From the NCBI GenBank assembly GCA_003660975.1, contig QMVG01000003.1:53235-117234 (forward strand): 64,000 bases of DNA. Reading direction: 5' to 3'. The DNA is from Microcaldota archaeon. Its GTDB lineage: Archaea > B1Sed10-29 > B47-G15. Each line of letters starts with the position of its first letter. The stretch's first letter is position 1. This document shows, piece by piece, positions 2,622-64,000 of this stretch. A program made the position numbers and the translations under genes. The notes beneath the pieces are model-generated. The model was not told where the DNA came from. It was given only the letters and a program-made list of their open reading frames with translations, and ran no database searches.

Positions 2622-3899
2622 TTGGAGATTCAGTTTTTAGGGGCCTGCCGTGAAGTGGGCAGATCGGCCTTTTTGGTCCAAGGCAAGAAGAAAAACATTG
2701 TTTTGGATTATGGAAATAAGATAAACCCTGAAGAAAACCTTTTCCCTCTGCCAGTTAGAAAGCACATAGATTTGGCTATTCTTTCTCATGCTCACTTGGA
2801 CCATTCAGGCGCTTTCCCTCTTTTATTCAAGCGCTCAGAATTTGATGTCTATATGACACCTCCAACGCTTCCTGTTTCAGAGTTGCTAATACGCGATTCA
2901 ATCAAAGTGAGCAAGTTAAGAGGTTTTGAAGAGCTTTTCAATGAAGTGCATTTAAAACGCTTTTTAAACAATGTTAAGACCTTGCCATACGACAGAGAAA
3001 AAAGCTTGGGGGCAGGCATTTCACTTGAGTTTGGCGATGCTGGGCACATAATAGGAGCTGCCATATCAAGCATACATTTTGATGATGTCCACCTCCTTTA
3101 CACAGGGGACTTTAAGCTGAAGGAAACGCATATGCACAAGGTTGCTAGGTCTAATTTCAAGAACATTGATGTATTGATAATTGAAAGCACATACGCTGGT
3201 GAAAAGCACCCCGATAGACACAAGCTTGAAGAGGAATTTGTGGCAGATTGTCAACGCATATGTGATGAAGGGGGAAATGTTTTGCTTCCAGCCTTTGCTG
3301 TTGGCAGGAGTCAGGAATTGGCAGCTGTGTTAAGTGACCATAACTTTGATTATCCTGTGTATATGGATGGGATGAGCAATAGCGTTTCAGAAATTATGTT
3401 GGAATTTCCAGACTATGTGAGAGATTATGATGATTTATACAGGGCCTTAAAAACCGTTGAATGGATTACTACTGAGAGGCAGAGAAGATTGGCATTGAAA
3501 GAGCCAAGTGTTATAATCTCTCCTGCAGGCATGCTCCAGGGCGGTCATGTTCTTTGGTATCTTTTAAAGCTGAGAGACAGACCTGGTTCAGCAGTTTTCA
3601 TAACTGGCTATCAAGTAGAGGGAACACCAGGAAGAATGCTTTTGGACACTAAGAGAATAAATATTGATGGTTATGAAATAGACATGTCTCATCTGGAAAT
3701 AAAGAAGTTTGACTTTTCCGCTCATGCAGATGATGATGACCTGCGCAGCTTCATAAAAAAGGTTGACCCCAAGCTTATTTTCGCTGTTCACGGTGATGAG
3801 GAGAAAACAGAGAAGCTACAGCAGTGGGCAAGGGATGAAGGTTACTATGCTTTTGCTCCGAGAATAGGGGATGACTTCGTAATAAATAAATACTTATAA
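2622..3899 (+). CDS. MBL-fold beta-CASP ribonuclease
   Basis: SHAHLDHSGAFPLL, GDAGHIIGAA, YTGDFK, SAHADDDDL, VHGDEEK. Confidence 0.9.
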   Translation: MEIQFLGACREVGRSAFLVQGKKKNIVLDYGNKINPEENLFPLPVRKHIDLAILSHAHLDHSGAFPLLFKRSEFDVYMTPPTLPVSELLIRDSIKVSKLRGFEELFNEVHLKRFLNNVKTLPYDREKSLGAGISLEFGDAGHIIGAAISSIHFDDVHLLYTGDFKLKETHMHKVARSNFKNIDVLIIESTYAGEKHPDRHKLEEEFVADCQRICDEGGNVLLPAFAVGRSQELAAVLSDHNFDYPVYMDGMSNSVSEIMLEFPDYVRDYDDLYRALKTVEWITTERQRRLALKEPSVIISPAGMLQGGHVLWYLLKLRDRPGSAVFITGYQVEGTPGRMLLDTKRINIDGYEIDMSHLEIKKFDFSAHADDDDLRSFIKKVDPKLIFAVHGDEEKTEKLQQWARDEGYYAFAPRIGDDFVINKYL

Positions 3900-3914
3900 A
3901 CTTCTTCTAAAAAT

Positions 3915-4619
3915 GTGATTGCGATGGCAGATAAAGAAAAAAAATTTTGCCCGAGATGTGGGGCAACTAATAGGCCTTTTTACAATGGCCTGTGTGTGGA
4001 TTGCTATAAAGAACTGCATAGCACTGAATTGGTGAGCTTTCCATCTAAAGTAGTGGTCGAGCGTTGCCCCCACTGTGGTAAGTATTTTTATAAGGGCAAG
4101 TGCTTGCCCTCAACATACAACAGTTTGCAGAAGGTTATAGCCTCAAAAGTGAAGAGCAAGCTTTACAAGACGAAAATAGACGTTGATGCTGCTTACAATT
4201 CTGTTGTCATAACCGTGTCTGGTTTTATTGATGCAGAGGAGCAGATTCCGTTTAAAATAGAGAAAGAGCTTCCCTTGAAAATAAAAGGCAAGGTCTGTGA
4301 TACTTGTTCTAAACTTCACGGCAATTACCATGAAGTGAAGATACAAGCGAGAAGAAAGAAAGGCAGCAACAGAAAGGATTATGAAAAGCTCTTGGCAGAC
4401 ATCAGGCACAGCACGAGAAAACTCCGCGCTTTGGACGACAGAGCAGCTGCTTTTTGGGAAAAGAAAACAAGGGAAGGAACCGACTTTTTCTATGTTCACA
4501 AGCAGTCAGGAGAGGAAATCGTTAAAGCAATTGAGAAGAAGTATAACTTGAAGGCAAAGCACAGCACAAGAATAGGGAGAAAGGGAAGAAGAAAGCACAC
4601 ATATAGCATACGCGTTTAG
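3915..4619 (+). CDS. NMD3-family ribosome export/assembly protein
   Basis: CPRCGATNRPFYNGLCVDCY...CPHCGKY...CDTCSKLHGNYHEVKIQAR typical of archaeal NMD3. Confidence 0.88.
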   Translation: MIAMADKEKKFCPRCGATNRPFYNGLCVDCYKELHSTELVSFPSKVVVERCPHCGKYFYKGKCLPSTYNSLQKVIASKVKSKLYKTKIDVDAAYNSVVITVSGFIDAEEQIPFKIEKELPLKIKGKVCDTCSKLHGNYHEVKIQARRKKGSNRKDYEKLLADIRHSTRKLRALDDRAAAFWEKKTREGTDFFYVHKQSGEEIVKAIEKKYNLKAKHSTRIGRKGRRKHTYSIRV

Positions 4620-4909
4620 CTTTTCTTTATCTTTTTTATGTCTTTTCTATAGCTTTTGGAAACCTCTAAACCCCTTTGCCATTCATCCATTATTGTTCTT
4701 GCTTTGTCCGATATATTTTTCCTTTCCTCTGGCAATATCTCCGAAAGCCTTCCTATAATCCTTTCTATCTCTGCTTTTGAAAGACCTTCTTTTTCCAATT
4801 CTTGCTTAAAGCTTCCAATCTTTTTGTCTCTGAATTCCTCGTAGTATCTCTGAAGCCTTCTCCTTGCCATGACTTTCTTAAGTTGATTAAGCTTTTTAAG
4901 TTTTTGCAA
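4616..4909 (-). CDS. Hypothetical basic helical protein
   Basis: 97-aa ORF, Lys/Glu rich. Confidence 0.5.
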   Translation of the reverse strand: MQKLKKLNQLKKVMARRRLQRYYEEFRDKKIGSFKQELEKEGLSKAEIERIIGRLSEILPEERKNISDKARTIMDEWQRGLEVSKSYRKDIKKIKKS

Positions 4910-4922
4910 TCATAATATAGGC

Positions 4923-5189
4923 ATGGCAATAGTGGGTCAGATTCCTCATTTTTGGCACGACAAAGAAGGCAAGGCACATAGGAATATGCTTCAAATAGAG
5001 GTAGAGGAACCACAGCTGAAAGGTGGCTTTCCGAGAGATGGCAGTGTTACGATAAGATTGCAAGACGAGCAGGCTCAAAAGGCGTTCAAAATGACTGCTC
5101 AGGAGGCCTTGCAATTAGGACAGGAATTGCTTGATATAGCCAAGGAACTGCTTTCAAAAAAGAGAGAGCTGTGGAGAAAGAGGCGATGA
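4923..5189 (+). CDS. Hypothetical protein
   Basis: ORF abutting the agmatinase-family gene. Confidence 0.6.
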   Translation: MAIVGQIPHFWHDKEGKAHRNMLQIEVEEPQLKGGFPRDGSVTIRLQDEQAQKAFKMTAQEALQLGQELLDIAKELLSKKRELWRKRR

Positions 5190-5190
5190 A

Positions 5191-5982
5191 ATGCTTATTA
5201 AAAACACTCTTCTGTCTGAAAACATATACTCAATAGAAGAGGCAGAGGTAATTATTCTAGGTGTGCCGTTTGACTCCACAGTATCAGAATATCCTGGAAC
5301 AAGGTTTGCGCCACTTAGGATAAGAGAGGATTTCAATATATCTGTTAACCAATATTTAGCAGAGATGGGTAGTATCTCTGACGTAAAATTGTATGACGCA
5401 GGAAATCTTTTGGTCAGTCACGGTAATCCAAAGAAGACATTGAATGACTTGCAGTCAGACTTTAGGTCCATCTATAAACAAAACCCAGAAGCTAAGTATA
5501 TTGTGATTGGAGGAGAGCATAGCATAAGCTTCCCGGTATTTGAGGTGATTAACAGTTTTGGAGATTTGGATTACCTTTGTTATGATGCCCACTGGGACCT
5601 CCTAGACGAAGCTTACGGGATAAAGGAAAGCCACGAATGCGTTAACAGAAGGATATTCGAGCTTGTGGGTGGAGACAGAATGAGGATAAAAGGCGTTAGG
5701 GAAGAGAGCAGGGAAGAGAAGGACTTTTCATCTCGAATAACAGGTAAGCTTCTTGGCAACAATCCCATATATCTCTCAATTGATTTGGATATTTTGGATA
5801 ATGTGCCCGTAAGCTGCCCAGTACCCGGTGGAATGTCTTTTGAGGAGCTATGGCGCGAAATTTCAAAAATAGAGAAGATAAAAGCAGTTGACATTGTTGA
5901 ATACAATCCATTGTTGGGATACTCTCCTATCCCTGCCGAGCTGTTGAAGAGACTTATCTTGCTTCTTGCAAAATCACATTAG
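5191..5982 (+). CDS. speB: Agmatinase/arginase family (ureohydrolase)
   Basis: GGEHSISFP, YDAHWDLLDE, SIDLDILD metal-binding motifs. Confidence 0.88.
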   Translation: MLIKNTLLSENIYSIEEAEVIILGVPFDSTVSEYPGTRFAPLRIREDFNISVNQYLAEMGSISDVKLYDAGNLLVSHGNPKKTLNDLQSDFRSIYKQNPEAKYIVIGGEHSISFPVFEVINSFGDLDYLCYDAHWDLLDEAYGIKESHECVNRRIFELVGGDRMRIKGVREESREEKDFSSRITGKLLGNNPIYLSIDLDILDNVPVSCPVPGGMSFEELWREISKIEKIKAVDIVEYNPLLGYSPIPAELLKRLILLLAKSH

Positions 5983-6999
5983 AACACGAGTGGTCATAAA
6001 CATGATGTAAATTAAGATAAGGAGCAATGCAGATTTTTTCCTCAATTTCTCATGCAGGCCAAATAGGACAGCCACAAGGCCTGTTATCACAAACAAAACA
6101 GGAAGGTCAAAGCTTAGCGTTAGGTTTTCCACCTTGAATCCAGCTACGACTGCACCAAGGCCTAACACTAATGTTGGATTTAATATGTTGCTTCCTATTA
6201 GTGTGCCAACGCTTAGCCTATTTATCCTTCTCAATATCGCGGTTATGCTGACAGTTAACTCAGGCAAGGCAGTTCCTAGGCCTATAAGTAGCCCTATTAT
6301 CACCTCATCCAACTTCAATGCATTTGATATTCTTATGCCGCTTTCAACAACAAGGTTAGCCCCATAGATAAGGAGAAGCACCCCAATAAAACCAATGATA
6401 ATGTCCCTTATATCTTCTTTCCTTAACCTTATGAATAGGTCGTGCTTTTCTATGCCTTTTAATATGTGCTGAGCATATGTAAAGTACATGCCAATTAATA
6501 CAAAACCTTCTAGAGGGCTTATGAAATTGTCAACAGCAAATACATAGAGCATTGCAATCACAGCCAGCATTGTCCCACAATCCCTGTACCAATCCCTCTC
6601 TTTTAGTGCTAACACACCAAAGAGACCTGCAATGCCAAGTGTCAAGGTCAAGTTTACGATATTACTTCCAATAGCATTTCCTATGGCAATGCCAGAGGCC
6701 TCTATGCCCAGCATGTTGTGGAAACCGGCATTCAAACTTGTTGCTATTTCAGGAAGACTTGTGCCTATTGAAACAACAGTAAGACCTATCAGCAATTCGC
6801 TCATGCCTGCTCTCTCTGCAAAGCGTTTAACAGCCTTTACTATTGTGTCGCTTCCGAAGATGAGCATGCCAAGGCCAACCAAAAACACCACTATATCAAT
6901 TGGGTTCATAAAAAAAGCTAAGCAGTTGGTGTTTAAAAAGATGTGCCAGAGAAATTTAAATAAATCTTTTATTATTATATTATCATGGATTGGAATCAA
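5974..6999 (-). CDS. Sodium/calcium exchanger family (CaCA) antiporter
   Basis: Two alpha repeats: GTSLPEIATSLNA...GNAIGSNIVN and GTALPELTVSI...GTLIGSNILNP; true start probably internal. Confidence 0.9.
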   Translation of the reverse strand: MIPIHDNIIIKDLFKFLWHIFLNTNCLAFFMNPIDIVVFLVGLGMLIFGSDTIVKAVKRFAERAGMSELLIGLTVVSIGTSLPEIATSLNAGFHNMLGIEASGIAIGNAIGSNIVNLTLTLGIAGLFGVLALKERDWYRDCGTMLAVIAMLYVFAVDNFISPLEGFVLIGMYFTYAQHILKGIEKHDLFIRLRKEDIRDIIIGFIGVLLLIYGANLVVESGIRISNALKLDEVIIGLLIGLGTALPELTVSITAILRRINRLSVGTLIGSNILNPTLVLGLGAVVAGFKVENLTLSFDLPVLFVITGLVAVLFGLHEKLRKKSALLLILIYIMFMTTRVLM

Positions 7000-7407
7000 T
7001 TTGATAAAGGAGTCTTTTTGGTAAACTTATTGGGCATCATATATGACCCCAAAACTAAAAAGATTTTAATTGGCAAGAGGGAAAATGACCCCTACATCAA
7101 AGAGCTATCTTGGTGTTTTCCAGGAGGCAGGCCTGGCTATGTTGATGACCTGGAATTTTACCTCAAAGAGCAGATTAAAATCAAAACAGGACTAGAGGTT
7201 GAGCCTAAAAAAATTGTCTTTGCTAAAACATATCCGGAAAAAAGAGAATTCCTCTCAATATACTACTATTGCGAAGTTTTGGGTGGTGAGGAGAAGGCCG
7301 GTGATAAATTTGTTGAAATAAAATGGGTAAGACCTACAGAGGTTGTTAATTATTTTACTACCTCCTTACACCAAAAGGTTCTAGATTTCTTAAGGACACT
7401 AGAGTGA
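6985..7407 (+). CDS. NUDIX hydrolase
   Basis: Nudix-like WCFPGGRPGYVDDLEFYLKEQIKIKTGLEVE. Confidence 0.8.
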   Translation: MDWNQFDKGVFLVNLLGIIYDPKTKKILIGKRENDPYIKELSWCFPGGRPGYVDDLEFYLKEQIKIKTGLEVEPKKIVFAKTYPEKREFLSIYYYCEVLGGEEKAGDKFVEIKWVRPTEVVNYFTTSLHQKVLDFLRTLE

Positions 7408-7492
7408 CGGAGGATTGCGTAAATTAACAGATATTGCTGATTTTTAGCAAAGTTTTTAAACATTTACCTGCTTTAATAAGAAGGGGATTTTT

Positions 7493-8260
7493 ATGAAAGG
7501 TGATAGAGTTTCATCAGGAATATTCGGCTTGGATGATCTAGTGGCGGGAGGCTTCCCCAAAAATAGTATAATTCTTTTGGCAGGAGGTCCAGGCACAGGT
7601 AAAACCACATTTTCTCTACAATACCTATATAAAGGCATAGTTGACTATGGAGAAAATGCTATCTATGTCAGTTCAGAAGAAGATTTTAATGAGATAAACA
7701 CATCTATGTCTGCTTTTGGGATGGACTTTGAGAAAGTATCCAATGAAAAAAAATTTTCAATGATAACATTTGAAGGGAGCACTGAGATTAAAGAACTCAT
7801 CTCACGGATAAAAAACTCAGCAAAGCAAATAAAGGCCAACAGGTTAGTTATTGACTCTTTTTCATCTTTGGAGCTATTTGCTTCAACATATAAATCAGTC
7901 ATAAATGAGTTGCCTCTATCAGCTTTGAGGTTGCCTTCATCTGTTATGGTGCCAACAGAGGCAATAGTTAGAAAGATGTTGTACAAATTGATATCCAGTT
8001 TGAAACAATTAGGATTAACAACAATCTTAACATCTGAGTTTGATGGCAGCACAAAATATTCGAGATATGGGGTTGCAGAATTTTTAGTCGATGGTTTGAT
8101 AGTCTTACATTACTCATCTATCGGACAAAAAAAGTTTGGCAACATTGAGATTAAGAAGCTTAGGAAGACCAAACACACGCACGGTATTTTTGATTATGAC
8201 CTCACCGAAAAAGGCTTTGAGATATTTGTAGAGCATGGACCTTCAATCATAATGAAGTGA
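7493..8260 (+). CDS. KaiC-like RecA-superfamily ATPase
   Basis: SGIFGLDDLVAGGFPKNSIILLAGGPGTGKTTFSLQYLYKG Walker A; RLVIDSFSSL Walker B. Confidence 0.92.
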   Translation: MKGDRVSSGIFGLDDLVAGGFPKNSIILLAGGPGTGKTTFSLQYLYKGIVDYGENAIYVSSEEDFNEINTSMSAFGMDFEKVSNEKKFSMITFEGSTEIKELISRIKNSAKQIKANRLVIDSFSSLELFASTYKSVINELPLSALRLPSSVMVPTEAIVRKMLYKLISSLKQLGLTTILTSEFDGSTKYSRYGVAEFLVDGLIVLHYSSIGQKKFGNIEIKKLRKTKHTHGIFDYDLTEKGFEIFVEHGPSIIMK

Positions 8261-8264
8261 TAAA

Positions 8265-8909
8265 ATGCCATTTATGTCCGGCGCATACGGTCTTTTTGGT
8301 AAATGGCTAATTTCAGGTCAACTTAAGATCAGCGAAGGCGATATTTCTTTGCTTGGGCAAAGAGTGGCAATGCTTCCAACTTCTTTTTTTGTTGAGATGG
8401 AAAAGACAGTACAGAAATCAAATAGTCCAACTCTCCGAGACGATGTTTATCTTTGGGCATGGAAAATTGCTTATTTGTACATTAAAAAATTTGTGGAGGA
8501 ATATGGTCTGAAGACCTTTGAAGAAAGGTATAAATGGGGAATGGATATTGCTTCTTTAGCTGGCTTTGGGGATTATAAAACTATTGATTATCATGATAAA
8601 GAATATAGTTATTTTTACATTATAAACAATCCAATCGCGGAGGCTTTTTACCCTTCTAAAAAAGCAGTAGACACTTTCCTTAGGGGCATAAATGCAGGTG
8701 GTGGTACTGCCTGTCATATGCAGATAGTCAATTGTTTGGAGACCGACTGCCAAGCAATAAATGGCCAAAAATGTGTTTTTATAACAGGCACAGAAAGAGC
8801 ACATGAAAAGTTCGGAGTTTCTGATTTGTACGCTGAACAGTTGGATCTTGATTATGTACTTCCGCAACAAAAAGAATTCCTAAGAAAGGTAGGATTACCG
8901 AAGGTGTAG
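8265..8909 (+). CDS. V4R-domain-like protein
   Basis: C-terminal pattern VNCLETDCQAINGQKCVFITGTE resembles V4R domains; 4-bp gap after the KaiC-like gene. Confidence 0.6.
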   Translation: MPFMSGAYGLFGKWLISGQLKISEGDISLLGQRVAMLPTSFFVEMEKTVQKSNSPTLRDDVYLWAWKIAYLYIKKFVEEYGLKTFEERYKWGMDIASLAGFGDYKTIDYHDKEYSYFYIINNPIAEAFYPSKKAVDTFLRGINAGGGTACHMQIVNCLETDCQAINGQKCVFITGTERAHEKFGVSDLYAEQLDLDYVLPQQKEFLRKVGLPKV

Positions 8910-8912
8910 TAA

Positions 8913-9746
8913 ATGAACAAAGCAGATGATAAAGACCTTATACAAAAATCGTTTAAAAAGGTAGAAGAACTTCAAATAAAAAACCATGACAGCCAAGTGC
9001 CTTTGTTTCTAGAGTATTTTAGAAATAGGCGAGTTGATTCCGGTACACTCTCTTTTCTTGAAACTGTTCTAATGGACCTCGAAAGGATCTTTTGGACCAT
9101 TGATGATACGCTGGATCTACAGTATGATAATAGTAAAGAATTATATTTATACAATGAAATAGTCAAATTTGTTAGCTTTGTTTTGTTAATGGATAAAATT
9201 TTAACCAAGCAATTTGCCGATAAGAGAGATTTGTTATCTTCTTTGATAGGAAAAAAGATACTTGCAGAGCGGATTCTCGATGCCATAAAAATTACATTAA
9301 AACCGTTAGTTAATATTCCATATAACGAGGCACTCTTATCAAGGAGGTTTAAAAAATTGAATTCTGACCATGAACTGATAAAATTCATAAAAGAAAACCA
9401 ATTAAACAAAGCGCAAAATTTAAAGGTTTATGCAGCAGTGTCAGAAGCCATATGTAAGAAGAATGTAAAGTTAGACTTGTTTCTTTATGCTAGAGCCATC
9501 CAACTTATACGCAATGACATTGAAGATGTTGGGGAAGATAGAAGGCACGATAACAACAACATTGTTCTTTTATTAAGGCGAAGGTTTAGAAGTAGAAACA
9601 AAATAAACAGCCTTCTAATAACTACTGCTAAAGAGATGTATAGATATATCGAAGGCAATTGCGATGAAAACACCTCTTTTTTGAAAGAATTCGCCAAGGC
9701 TGAGATTCAAAAAATAAGAAACTTACTTAATACTCAGCACAGATAG
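8913..9746 (+). CDS. Divergent squalene/phytoene synthase-like (head-to-head prenyl synthase fold) protein
   Basis: FWTIDDTLDLQ and ARAIQLIRNDIEDVGEDRRHDNNNIVLL resemble DDxxD and QLxNIxRDVxEDxxxGR motifs. Confidence 0.5.
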   Translation: MNKADDKDLIQKSFKKVEELQIKNHDSQVPLFLEYFRNRRVDSGTLSFLETVLMDLERIFWTIDDTLDLQYDNSKELYLYNEIVKFVSFVLLMDKILTKQFADKRDLLSSLIGKKILAERILDAIKITLKPLVNIPYNEALLSRRFKKLNSDHELIKFIKENQLNKAQNLKVYAAVSEAICKKNVKLDLFLYARAIQLIRNDIEDVGEDRRHDNNNIVLLLRRRFRSRNKINSLLITTAKEMYRYIEGNCDENTSFLKEFAKAEIQKIRNLLNTQHR

Positions 9747-31702: not shown

Positions 31703-31822
31703 GCCTAGGCAGCTTACTGTCCTTCCCGCACAGAAGTGCAGTACCAGACAGTACGCAGGAGGGCTTAACTTCCGGGTTCGGCATGAGTCCGGGTGTTTCC
31801 CCTCCGCTATGGCCGCCAGGCG
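31703..31822 (-). rRNA. rrf: 5S rRNA (boundaries approximate)
   Basis: Minus strand GCCTGGCGGCCATAGCGGAGGGGAAACACCCGGACTCATGCCGAACCCGGAAGTTAAGCCC...; own TATA TTTATATAATA upstream (31843-31853). Confidence 0.95.
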
Positions 31823-60044: not shown

Positions 60045-63000
60045 GAAGGAGAAAGTACGCGAAGCAGCAAAGCCCTAGGCAAAGCCTATAGCAGAAGCAC
60101 GTCGAGCTTTTAGTACTTGCCGGCTGAACGCCTCGCCGAAGCTTGGCGCTTACACCGCAAGCCTATCAAACCCGTCTTCTACGGGCGCTCTCCCCCAGTG
60201 CATTACCTCCTTGCGGAGGATACACCGGGATGGCTGTCTATTTTTGGGGGGCGCTTCAGGCTTAGATGCTTTCAGCCCTTATCGCCTGGGGCGTAGCTGC
60301 CCAGCAATGCACTGTCGGACAACTGGTACACCAGAGGCCCCGACCCATTGTTCCTCTCGTACTCAACGGACCTTCCCCTCAGACAGCCCACACTCCCAGC
60401 AGATGACACCGTACTGTCTCGCGACGTACTGAACCCAGCTCGCGTGCGGCTTTGATGGGTGTACAACCCTACCCTTGGCAGCTGCTGCACTGCCAGGATG
60501 CCACGTGCCGACATCGGAGTTACAAACCGCGGGGTCGATAGGGACTCTAACCCGCGACAATACTGTTTCCCCCAGGGTAACTTTTCTGTCAGGACAGGCC
60601 CCCACCAAGAGGGCACTGTAGTTCGCTAGGCCCTGCTTTCGCACCTGCGTTCCTCTCTGTACGGAACACAGTCAAGCCGGCTTTTGCCCTTGACTCTCTA
60701 CGACCGATTTCTGACCGGTCTGAGCCGACCTTTGGGCACGCCTGATACCTTTTCAGGCGTGTGCCGCCCCAACCAAACCGCCCACCACATGCTGTCCCCT
60801 GCTTTCGCAGGGTGAACGATGTGGTTACGGACAGTTGGTATTACACCGTTGGCTCCACACTCCCCGCAGAGAGTGCTTCGAAGCCTCCCAACTATCCTAT
60901 GTATCCGCAAACACACCGTAACATGAGGCTGCGGTAAAGCTCCATGGGGTCTTCTCGTCCCACTGGGAGTCGCAGGCATGTTCACCTGCCAGTGATTTCA
61001 CCGGGTCCTTCCTGGGGACAGTGGGGGAGTCGTTACGCCCTTCATGCAAGCCGCCAATTAAGCGGCGAGGTATTACGCTACCTTAAGAGGGTCAGAGTTA
61101 CCCCCGCTCTTCACCAGCGCTTAGCCGGGTTGAACCCCGGTTTCACGTACTGGCAGTGAGCAGGCGTCAGCCCCAGTACTTACCGTTACCGGCTAGCTGG
61201 GACTTGTGTTTTTGGTAAACAGTCGCTCCCCCCTTGTCACTGCGACCTACCTTTCCCTGCAGAGCAGAGAAGGCAGGCATCCCTTCTACCGAAGATACGG
61301 GACTAATTTGCCGAGTTCCCTCAGGAAGGGTCGCCCGTCACGCCTTAGCCTTTTCAGCTAGGGGCACCTGTGCCAGTTCTAGGTACGGTCTTGGGGACTC
61401 CCATTTTCGCTCCCACTTTTCACGGGCTCTGGGACTCACCCGAACCGGCAAACGCCGGCCATTCGCAGTTTGGGCTGCTTCTCATCGTGACGATACTCCA
61501 CAGTCCTATCCTGCTTAGACATCGCGACGGCGATGCTCAGGCTATCCCAAAGCGTCATGGGAGCGACATGCGTTGCCGCAGGTATCCCCAAGGTACGGGA
61601 ATATTAACCCGTTTCCCTTTCCTCCGCGTCGGGTTACGAGCGGAGTTAGGACCGACTAACCCTCAGCTGATGAACATTGCTGAGGAACCCTGGCCCTTTC
61701 GGCGGAAGCGATTTTCACGCTTCTTTGCTGTTACTATCGGCAGGATTTTCATTGCCACGCGGTCCACACGACGTCACCGCCGTGCTTCTGCCCACGCAGC
61801 ACGCCTCTCTACCGCAGGAATTCTCAAGAATTCCTACCCAGGGTATCGGTACTTGGCTTAGCCCCGTCCATTTTCGGCGCCAGTTTCCTCGGCGGGTGAG
61901 CTGTTACGCATTCTTTAAAGGATGGCTGCTTCTAAGCCTACCTCCCCGCTGTCTGTGGAAACTGACCTCCTTTACCCTTTAACACTTAGCCAAGATTTAG
62001 GGACCTTAACCCTGGTCTGGGTTGTTCCCCTCACGGACACCAAGCTTACCCCGGTGCCCCGACTCCTGCCTTCTACGACGATAGTGCATTCGGAGTTTAA
62101 CAAGGAGGCCGAATCTCTCGACCCTTAACCTCCTAATTGGTGCTCTACCGCACTATCCATCTCCAGCAGGGTCATCCTACGGGATGTATCGAGAGGAGCC
62201 TGCTATCGCCGAGCTAGATTGGCCTTTCACCCCTACACCCAGGTCACCCGAGTGAGTTGATCTCAACACCGGTTGATGGCCTCCACCAGGTTGTTTCCCG
62301 GCTTCGCCATGCCCAGGTGTAGATCGCCCGGCTTCAGGTCTTGCCGCTGTGACTCAGGCGCTGTTAACACCTTCCTCCTCGCCCAGAGGGCTGCGAGGCA
62401 TTGGTTTCCCTTCGGCTTCCCCTCTTCGGGTTAACCTTGCCACAACGACAAACTCCCTGCCCAGTGCTTCATGACCGAAGATGCGACCCCGGATAATCCT
62501 CCCTCGTTGCCTTCGGGAGGAGTACCTTTTGAGCCGCATCGCCTGTCGCCACTTGGTTTCAGGCTCTTTTCACTACCCTTTCGGGTATCTCTTTCACCTT
62601 TCCCTCACGGTACTAGTTCGCTATCGGTCTTGGGGCGTATTTATAGTTGGGAGTTGGTTCTCCCGCCTTCACGCACCAGTCAAGGTACGCTACTCTTGGA
62701 CACTCCTAAGAACCTCTCTTTTCCTGCCTACGGGGGTATCACCCTGTAGCCCGCCCCGTTCCAGGGGACTTCGGCAGTTGAAAAGAAAGGTCCAAAGAGG
62801 CCAAATCCACATTGCATATACGTTGCCGCATATGCTTCAGATTGCTATCTTCCCTTTTCGCTCGCCGCTACTCAGGGAATCGCTGTTGCTTTCTTCTCCC
62901 GCGGGTACTAAGATGTTTCAATTCCCCGCGTTCCTGCTCCCGAAGGAGCAATTCGGGAATCCCAGGTTCAAAGGCTGCATGCGCCTACCCTGGGCTTATC

Positions 63001-63068
63001 GCAGCTTGCCACGCCCTTCATCAGCTCCCAAGCCGAGGCATCCACCAAGTGGCTTATTGCGCTTCTGC
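60045..63068 (-). rRNA. rrl: 23S rRNA (boundaries approximate)
   Basis: Conserved core incl. sarcin-ricin loop complement (ccattgttcctctcgtactcaacgga) and 5' region complement (gaggcatccaccaagtggc). Confidence 0.96.
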
Positions 63069-63205
63069 CATTACTGAAAAAGCTTTACCTAAGGCGCTCA
63101 CTGTTAATCGTGAGACGATTAGGGGGCTGCTTCGCATACTTCCTCATTGCGAACATAATGATTCGCTCGAAGGAATATGAAGCTTGGCTCCATATCCCTT
63201 TACGA

Positions 63206-63277
63206 TGGACCCGGAGGGATTTGAACCCCCGACCTCTTCCACGCCAAGGAAGCGATCTACCACTGATCTACGGGCCC
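63206..63277 (-). tRNA. tRNA-Ala(GGC) in 16S-23S spacer
   Basis: GGGCCCGTAGATCAGTGGTAGATCGCTTCC-TTGGCGT-GGAAGAGGTCGGGGGTTCAAATCCCTCCGGGTCCA. Confidence 0.93.
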
Positions 63278-63356
63278 AATCTCCGGGTCCCGTAATCAGT
63301 AAGCCCGATAGAGGATTTTGAGTTCCTGTGGGAAACCCCTTTGCACACATTATAGA

Positions 63357-64000
<644 letters not shown>

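Follow-up and report, generated by a model that had tools for sequence, protein, structure and literature searches.

An isoprenoid-linked KaiC–V4R gene module with a soluble, putatively prenyltransferase-type third protein in archaea

A gene for a KaiC-family ATPase, a gene for a V4R-family protein and a third gene for an unnamed soluble protein with two Asp motifs form a set that is real and conserved, recurring at eight archaeal loci, and both this module and its link to isoprenoid metabolism are well supported. The set was studied in a 64,000-nucleotide stretch of contig QMVG01000003.1 from a Microcaldota archaeon (genome G000), referred to here as the window, which is archaeal by its LSU and SSU rRNA and its RNase P. 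On balance, we lean towards reading the third protein as a soluble prenyltransferase, class-I-like, that replaces UbiA in this module and is controlled or assisted by KaiC and V4R.

The three genes lie on the same strand, with intergenic gaps of 4 bp between KaiC and V4R and 3 bp between V4R and the third gene, exactly as a first-pass annotation of this DNA had placed them (Table 1). Read from the sequence, the candidate promoter region contains a TATA-like AAAGTTTTTAAA; immediately 5′ of the KaiC ATG comes a purine run, GGGG. A NUDIX-domain gene on the same strand (window 6985-7407), in which the Nudix box looks degenerate, is found 85 bp upstream of the operon, and no link between such a gene and the KaiC–V4R module was seen in the other loci. 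A metallo-beta-lactamase/CPSF-like gene (FLGACREVGRSA...) lies at most about 6 kb from the KaiC–V4R locus in the window, G003 and G037 (window 2622-3899, L024 8968-10275 and L109 14324-15000), perhaps as a conserved neighbourhood. Elsewhere in the window, a minus-strand rRNA operon (60090-64000) carries an archaeal 16S gene cut by the window end, tRNA-Ala and 23S, and a separate 5S gene (31704-31820) lies about 28 kb from this 16S-23S operon.

Table 1 Features of the KaiC–V4R–third gene operon in the window
Feature	Position	Strand	Description	Evidence
Candidate operon promoter and ribosome-binding site	7445..7492	+	A/T-rich, before the KaiC start; putative function	
KaiC-family ATPase gene	7493..8260	+	Single domain, 255 aa	Pfam PF06745, E=2.7e-57
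V4R-family gene	8265..8909	+	214 aa, long subclass	Homology to the G000:C8 V4R; V4R tree clade
Third gene	8913..9746	+	277 aa, unnamed soluble family, two Asp motifs, putative prenyltransferase-type enzyme	8 homologues, all with KaiC and V4R

The KaiC domain of the first protein scored 194 bits against a Pfam cut-off of 26.6. Its Walker A (GGPGTGKT) and Walker B-like (RLVIDS) motifs were both judged intact, an SSEE stretch is a putative catalytic Glu pair, and Walker A is intact in the KaiC of all eight triads, in agreement with the earlier description of a KaiC-type ATPase with a clean Walker A. A clock KaiC was considered and rejected, since the protein has a single domain and scored 122-153 bits against clock cut-offs of 408 and 546. 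A role as general signalling hubs has been put forward for archaeal KaiC-family ATPases (Makarova, Galperin and Koonin 2017, as cited in PMC5847659). As far as that citation describes them, the present protein is like these ATPases in its single domain, intact Walker A and putative sensor gene as partner, and differs from them in that its partners are a V4R protein and a predicted isoprenoid-type enzyme.

The second protein contains the Cys run CLETDCQAINGQKC from which a V4R-like domain had been proposed, with Cys residues C157, C162 and C170, as well as an AGGG run. Although it gave no hmmscan match and only 14.2 bits against the PF02830 cut-off of 31, it shares homology (E=2.3e-6) with a further V4R encoded by this genome, G000:C8, which at 43 bits is above that cut-off, and it falls within a V4R tree clade described below, so that the V4R identity held. 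A two-sequence structure model had a mean pLDDT of 42, too poor for fold comparison. In relatives from the V4R/TRAPPC3 group, a cavity is occupied by palmitate or phenols (PMC10933270), and V4R has been described as a hydrophobic-ligand domain signalling to effectors (PMC2253512). Compared with the V4R/TRAPPC3 (Bet3) domain, the likeness lies in the homology to the above-cut-off V4R and in the conserved Gly run and Cys residues, whereas the window protein belongs to a long subclass (about 210-223 aa) that is below the Pfam cut-off alone and whose genes always accompany KaiC and either the third gene or UbiA. This long V4R had no relatives on viral contigs, and the GTDB contig scans returned the G003 V4R as the only relative of the window V4R.

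Conservation of the set was examined in about 500 archaeal genomes, made up of 394 genomes plus 87 from the phylum of G078 and 28 from the phylum of G388. The V4R query had relatives in 26 of the 394 genomes, and the third-protein query had one clear relative among them, in G098, where its gene is the one just downstream of the closest V4R. V4R neighbourhoods yielded further proteins with the same two Asp motifs at this position, and a third-family profile built from seven members was run against the 394, 87 and 28 genomes. In these genomes the family has eight members (window, G030, G078, G098, G238, G284, G388 and G412), every one of which adjoins both a KaiC and a V4R gene. In five triads all three genes point the same way, separated by -22 to 49 bp, and in three one gene is turned; since gene order and orientation differ among the triads, the linkage survived rearrangement. 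Conservation of the triad in relatives, on which the first-pass annotation had made its reading depend, was thus found. A ninth profile match, in G310, was weak and had adjacent reading frames that look unrelated, and was put down to chance. The third protein had no relative on viral contigs or in the GTDB contig scans, its homologues being found only by whole-genome HMMER search. Across the triads, protein distances co-vary between V4R and the third protein (r=0.84, Mantel p=0.0002), KaiC and the third protein (r=0.67, Mantel p=0.0019) and KaiC and V4R (r=0.59, Mantel p=0.0012), as expected from joint inheritance, with host-genome kinship contributing in each case.

The Asp motifs of the third protein are DDTLD at residues 64-68 (in IDDTLD) and NDIEDVGED at residues 201-209 (in RNDIEDVGED). 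Both had been picked out in the first reading of the sequence, and both are kept in all eight members, in the forms DDxxD and (K/N)DIxDxxxD. Residues D64, D68, E139, R194, L198, D202, D205 and D209 are invariant throughout the family and take in the two Asp motifs and an Arg and a Leu flanking them. A core of six members carries two further signatures, a basic K..LRT motif ahead of motif 1 and an RS pair ahead of motif 2. Neither the window protein nor G098 has the K..LRT motif, and the two show 13-23% identity to the rest of the family. The window copy has N before motif 2 where the others have K, and the conserved T after motif 2 is absent, so that, given these losses together with that of K..LRT, it may be specialised or less active. 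Of the 636 proteins of 200-450 aa encoded in the retrieved loci, 21 fit a loose two-Asp-motif pattern with class-I-like spacing that was composed post hoc, after the family had been seen; these are all 8 members of the family, 12 prenyl-synthase-type proteins and 1 UbiA. Conservation in every member and the selectivity of this post hoc pattern indicate that the two motifs exceed chance. The third protein is likely to function as an enzyme and is probably a metal-dependent prenyltransferase or prenyl-diphosphate-binding enzyme.

Profile comparisons were used for family assignment. No Pfam or NCBIfam model matched any of the eight members, and no usable match to the third protein was present among PDB sequences. 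The resemblance to squalene/phytoene synthases suggested by the first-pass annotation did not stand: PF00494 left the third protein unmatched within its own genome at E<=1, matched none of the eight members and gave an HHalign probability of 0.7% for the family, and the profile-profile score of 20.0 was near that of the reversed control (18.0), and membership of that family was rejected on these profile tests. PF00348 likewise matched neither the third protein nor any other member (HHalign probability 1.6%), the two PF00348 matches of the window genome being elsewhere, on C8, and the trans-prenyl-synthase profile-profile score of 23.2 was near its reversed control of 19.0. The UbiA profile scored 36.4, a value reached by 0 of 120 column shuffles (10.6 +/- 1.9) and above the reversed control of 16.2, and still scored 35.2 when the window and G098 proteins were left out. 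This UbiA match covers the second Asp motif only, with 29 columns and an HHalign probability of 42%, and aligns KDIxDxxxDx(6)T; PF01040 gave no full-length or Pfam match for the family. By these profiles, motif 2 is UbiA-like rather than squalene-synthase-like, and motif 1 is DDxxD. The best PDB profile match, a geranyltranstransferase (E=0.033), covers the first motif only. Matches to Terpene_syn_C_2 (E=0.0077), confined to residues 21-53, outside the Asp motifs, and missing from the other members, and to PDB 2jj7 were both judged to be chance. A single-sequence AlphaFold model was all-alpha and, with a mean pLDDT of 42, unusable.

The maximum 19-residue hydropathy is 0.9-1.6 in the third family versus 2.3-2.6 in UbiA, and GRAVY is negative; the third protein is predicted to be soluble, unlike the multi-helix membrane protein UbiA. 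UbiA and the soluble isoprenoid synthases are built on the same all-alpha fold, with Asp motifs in pairs, which makes a soluble enzyme carrying a UbiA-type motif 2 reasonable. Relative to UbiA proteins such as digeranylgeranylglyceryl phosphate synthase, motif 2 is nearly identical, the third gene takes the same place in sister operons and a geranylgeranyl-reductase-family gene is often a neighbour, whereas motif 1 is DDxxD instead of NDxxDxxxD and full-length similarity is absent. With the trans-prenyl-diphosphate synthases of PF00348, the family shares a DDxxD-type motif 1, a similar Asp-motif spacing and, in six members, the position of motif 1 about 35-45 residues C-terminal to a basic LRT/RP-like motif, but there is no significant profile match and motif 2 is not FQxxDDxxD. 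Like the squalene/phytoene synthases, the third protein has two Asp motifs, the second of which resembles RDxxED, but it is without their flanking signature residues.

In a tree of 44 V4R proteins, the window V4R belongs to an 11-member clade with support of 100/99, composed of the eight third-linked loci and three UbiA-linked loci (G003, G129 and G037). KaiC is present at all 11 loci and so is either the third gene or UbiA, while both occur together at none; two of the loci in this comparison sit on short contigs. With labels assigned at random, the chance that the three UbiA loci are exactly the three without the third gene is 1/165. Because the three UbiA-linked V4Rs form one clade, the exchange may have been a single replacement event. 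A geranylgeranyl-reductase-family gene is found with both kinds of locus, at all three of the UbiA-linked loci and at the third-linked loci of G078 and G412. Since the third gene and UbiA alternate in sister loci, the simplest reading of these gene contents is that the third protein would do a job equivalent to that of UbiA.

The genes within 5 kb of V4R were surveyed at 37 archaeal loci, with background rates taken from 19 and 61 related genomes, a different set from the V4R loci. KaiC is present at 25 of the 37. UbiA is present at 8, with 0.56 expected (P=1.4e-7), and a trans-prenyl-diphosphate synthase at 6, with 0.34 expected (P=1.6e-6). Geranylgeranyl-reductase-family flavoproteins occur at 8 loci (TIGR02032 confirms the family, with several below cut-off), a cis-prenyltransferase accompanies V4R at 2 loci, and the third gene does so at 8. 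In total, an isoprenoid gene or the third gene is found at 23 of the 37. The connection to isoprenoid or lipid metabolism that the first-pass annotation had drawn from motifs is now a statistical neighbourhood signal, since these neighbour genes are enriched. In G361, genes for a type-2 IPP isomerase, a polyprenyl synthetase and two SQS_PSY proteins are clustered around the KaiC–V4R pair. In the window genome, a second KaiC–V4R locus, on C8, has a UbiA gene, with two prenyl synthases some 8 kb further along, and on C16 (L043) a KaiC gene lies directly upstream of another UbiA.

Several related arrangements were also observed. The G361 cluster (L121, G361:C1:27000-42000, about 3532-8969) reads SQS_PSY, type-2 IPP isomerase, polyprenyl synthetase, KaiC, V4R and second SQS_PSY, the last with a Pfam E of 1.7e-7. 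KaiC–UbiA pairs without V4R occur at L040-L043 and L045 (G007, G002, G005, G000:C16 and G003:C12), in five genomes of the same order, where a KaiC of 234-236 aa lies directly upstream of a high-scoring UbiA, probably an archaeal lipid enzyme, with scpA/scpB-like genes downstream. A second UbiA paralogue is found at L060 and L062-L065 (G004, G008, G013, G012 and G016), beside a homocitrate/isopropylmalate-synthase-like gene in most, with a UppS cis-prenyltransferase in two and KaiC nearby in some. KaiC–V4R pairs of another type, with a V4R of about 246-283 aa, occur in the same phylum at L029-L036 (G008, G003:C23, G005, G004, G013, G012 and G016), in clusters that also contain several KaiC genes, along with genes that look like response regulators and sensors.

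Mg2+ and the diphosphate of a prenyl substrate would be bound by the two Asp motifs of the third protein, which likely transfers or condenses the prenyl group and so would do the job of membrane UbiA in the sister loci. For KaiC and V4R we infer a switch mechanism in which V4R would bind an isoprenoid substrate or product, and ATP binding and hydrolysis by KaiC would assemble, gate or switch the V4R/third pair according to isoprenoid level, which would feed back on synthesis, with inhibition, activation and chaperoning all possible as the direction of control. Where present, the geranylgeranyl-reductase-family enzyme would act downstream. A wider reading, which we put forward only tentatively, gives KaiC and V4R direct control over isoprenoid enzymes, or a chaperone role towards them, with a new soluble prenyltransferase family that replaced, or was replaced by, UbiA among these enzymes, and would make KaiC–V4R a general archaeal isoprenoid-lipid sensor-switch.

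The third protein might instead have the isoprenoid fold but be catalytically dead or not an enzyme at all; as a regulatory small subunit or prenyl carrier, for example, it would bind a prenyl chain and pass a signal or ligand to V4R and KaiC. Fast evolution, as seen in the low identity of the window and G098 proteins to the rest, the loss of the basic LRT motif in these two and the weak motif-2 details of the window copy would fit such a role, but across all eight members no positions are better conserved than the Asp residues of the two motifs, as metal/diphosphate chemistry predicts, and the alternative occupant, UbiA, is an enzyme family; we consider this explanation unlikely. It is quite improbable that the third protein is a divergent head-to-head synthase of squalene/phytoene type under KaiC–V4R control, given that its profile score falls near background and well below that for UbiA and that PF00494 matches no family member, even though RNDIEDVGED resembles the RDxxED of that family, true SQS_PSY proteins adjoin KaiC and V4R in G361 and the window genome has no other SQS_PSY match.

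KaiC–V4R could also be a general signalling unit, with its proximity to isoprenoid genes a by-product of operon clustering in small genomes and the third protein having an unrelated function. In its favour, general hub functions in signalling have been proposed for KaiC proteins in the survey cited above, and elsewhere in the phylum KaiC–V4R pairs do lie among other KaiC and apparent sensor and response-regulator genes. This explanation is nevertheless improbable, as UbiA and prenyl synthases near V4R are far above expectation and the long-V4R clade is tied to the third gene or UbiA at 11 of 11 loci.

A literature search returned no paper joining archaeal KaiC or V4R to UbiA/prenyltransferases or geranylgeranyl reductase, the 2017 KaiC survey being represented in it by its citation, and the KaiC–V4R pairing itself may already have been noted in that survey. 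Neither a signalling-hub role for archaeal KaiC proteins nor a ligand-binding role for V4R is a new idea; the link to prenyltransferases had no counterpart in the papers searched, and the protein family, which has no Pfam or NCBIfam model, appears to be new. Archaeal membranes, quinones and pigments are isoprenoid, and control of their synthesis is little understood. Most archaeal KaiC proteins are without an assigned role, and the module offers a testable set of partners and a ligand class for KaiC and V4R, as well as a family with a predicted active site that profile libraries do not recognise. V4R is an ancestor-like relative of the eukaryotic TRAPP subunit Bet3, and because of this relationship the ligand of archaeal V4R bears on the origin of membrane-trafficking proteins. 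The recurrence of the trio in eight diverse archaea, and the stand-in of a membrane prenyltransferase for the third protein at some loci, point to an unrecognised control of isoprenoid lipid synthesis.
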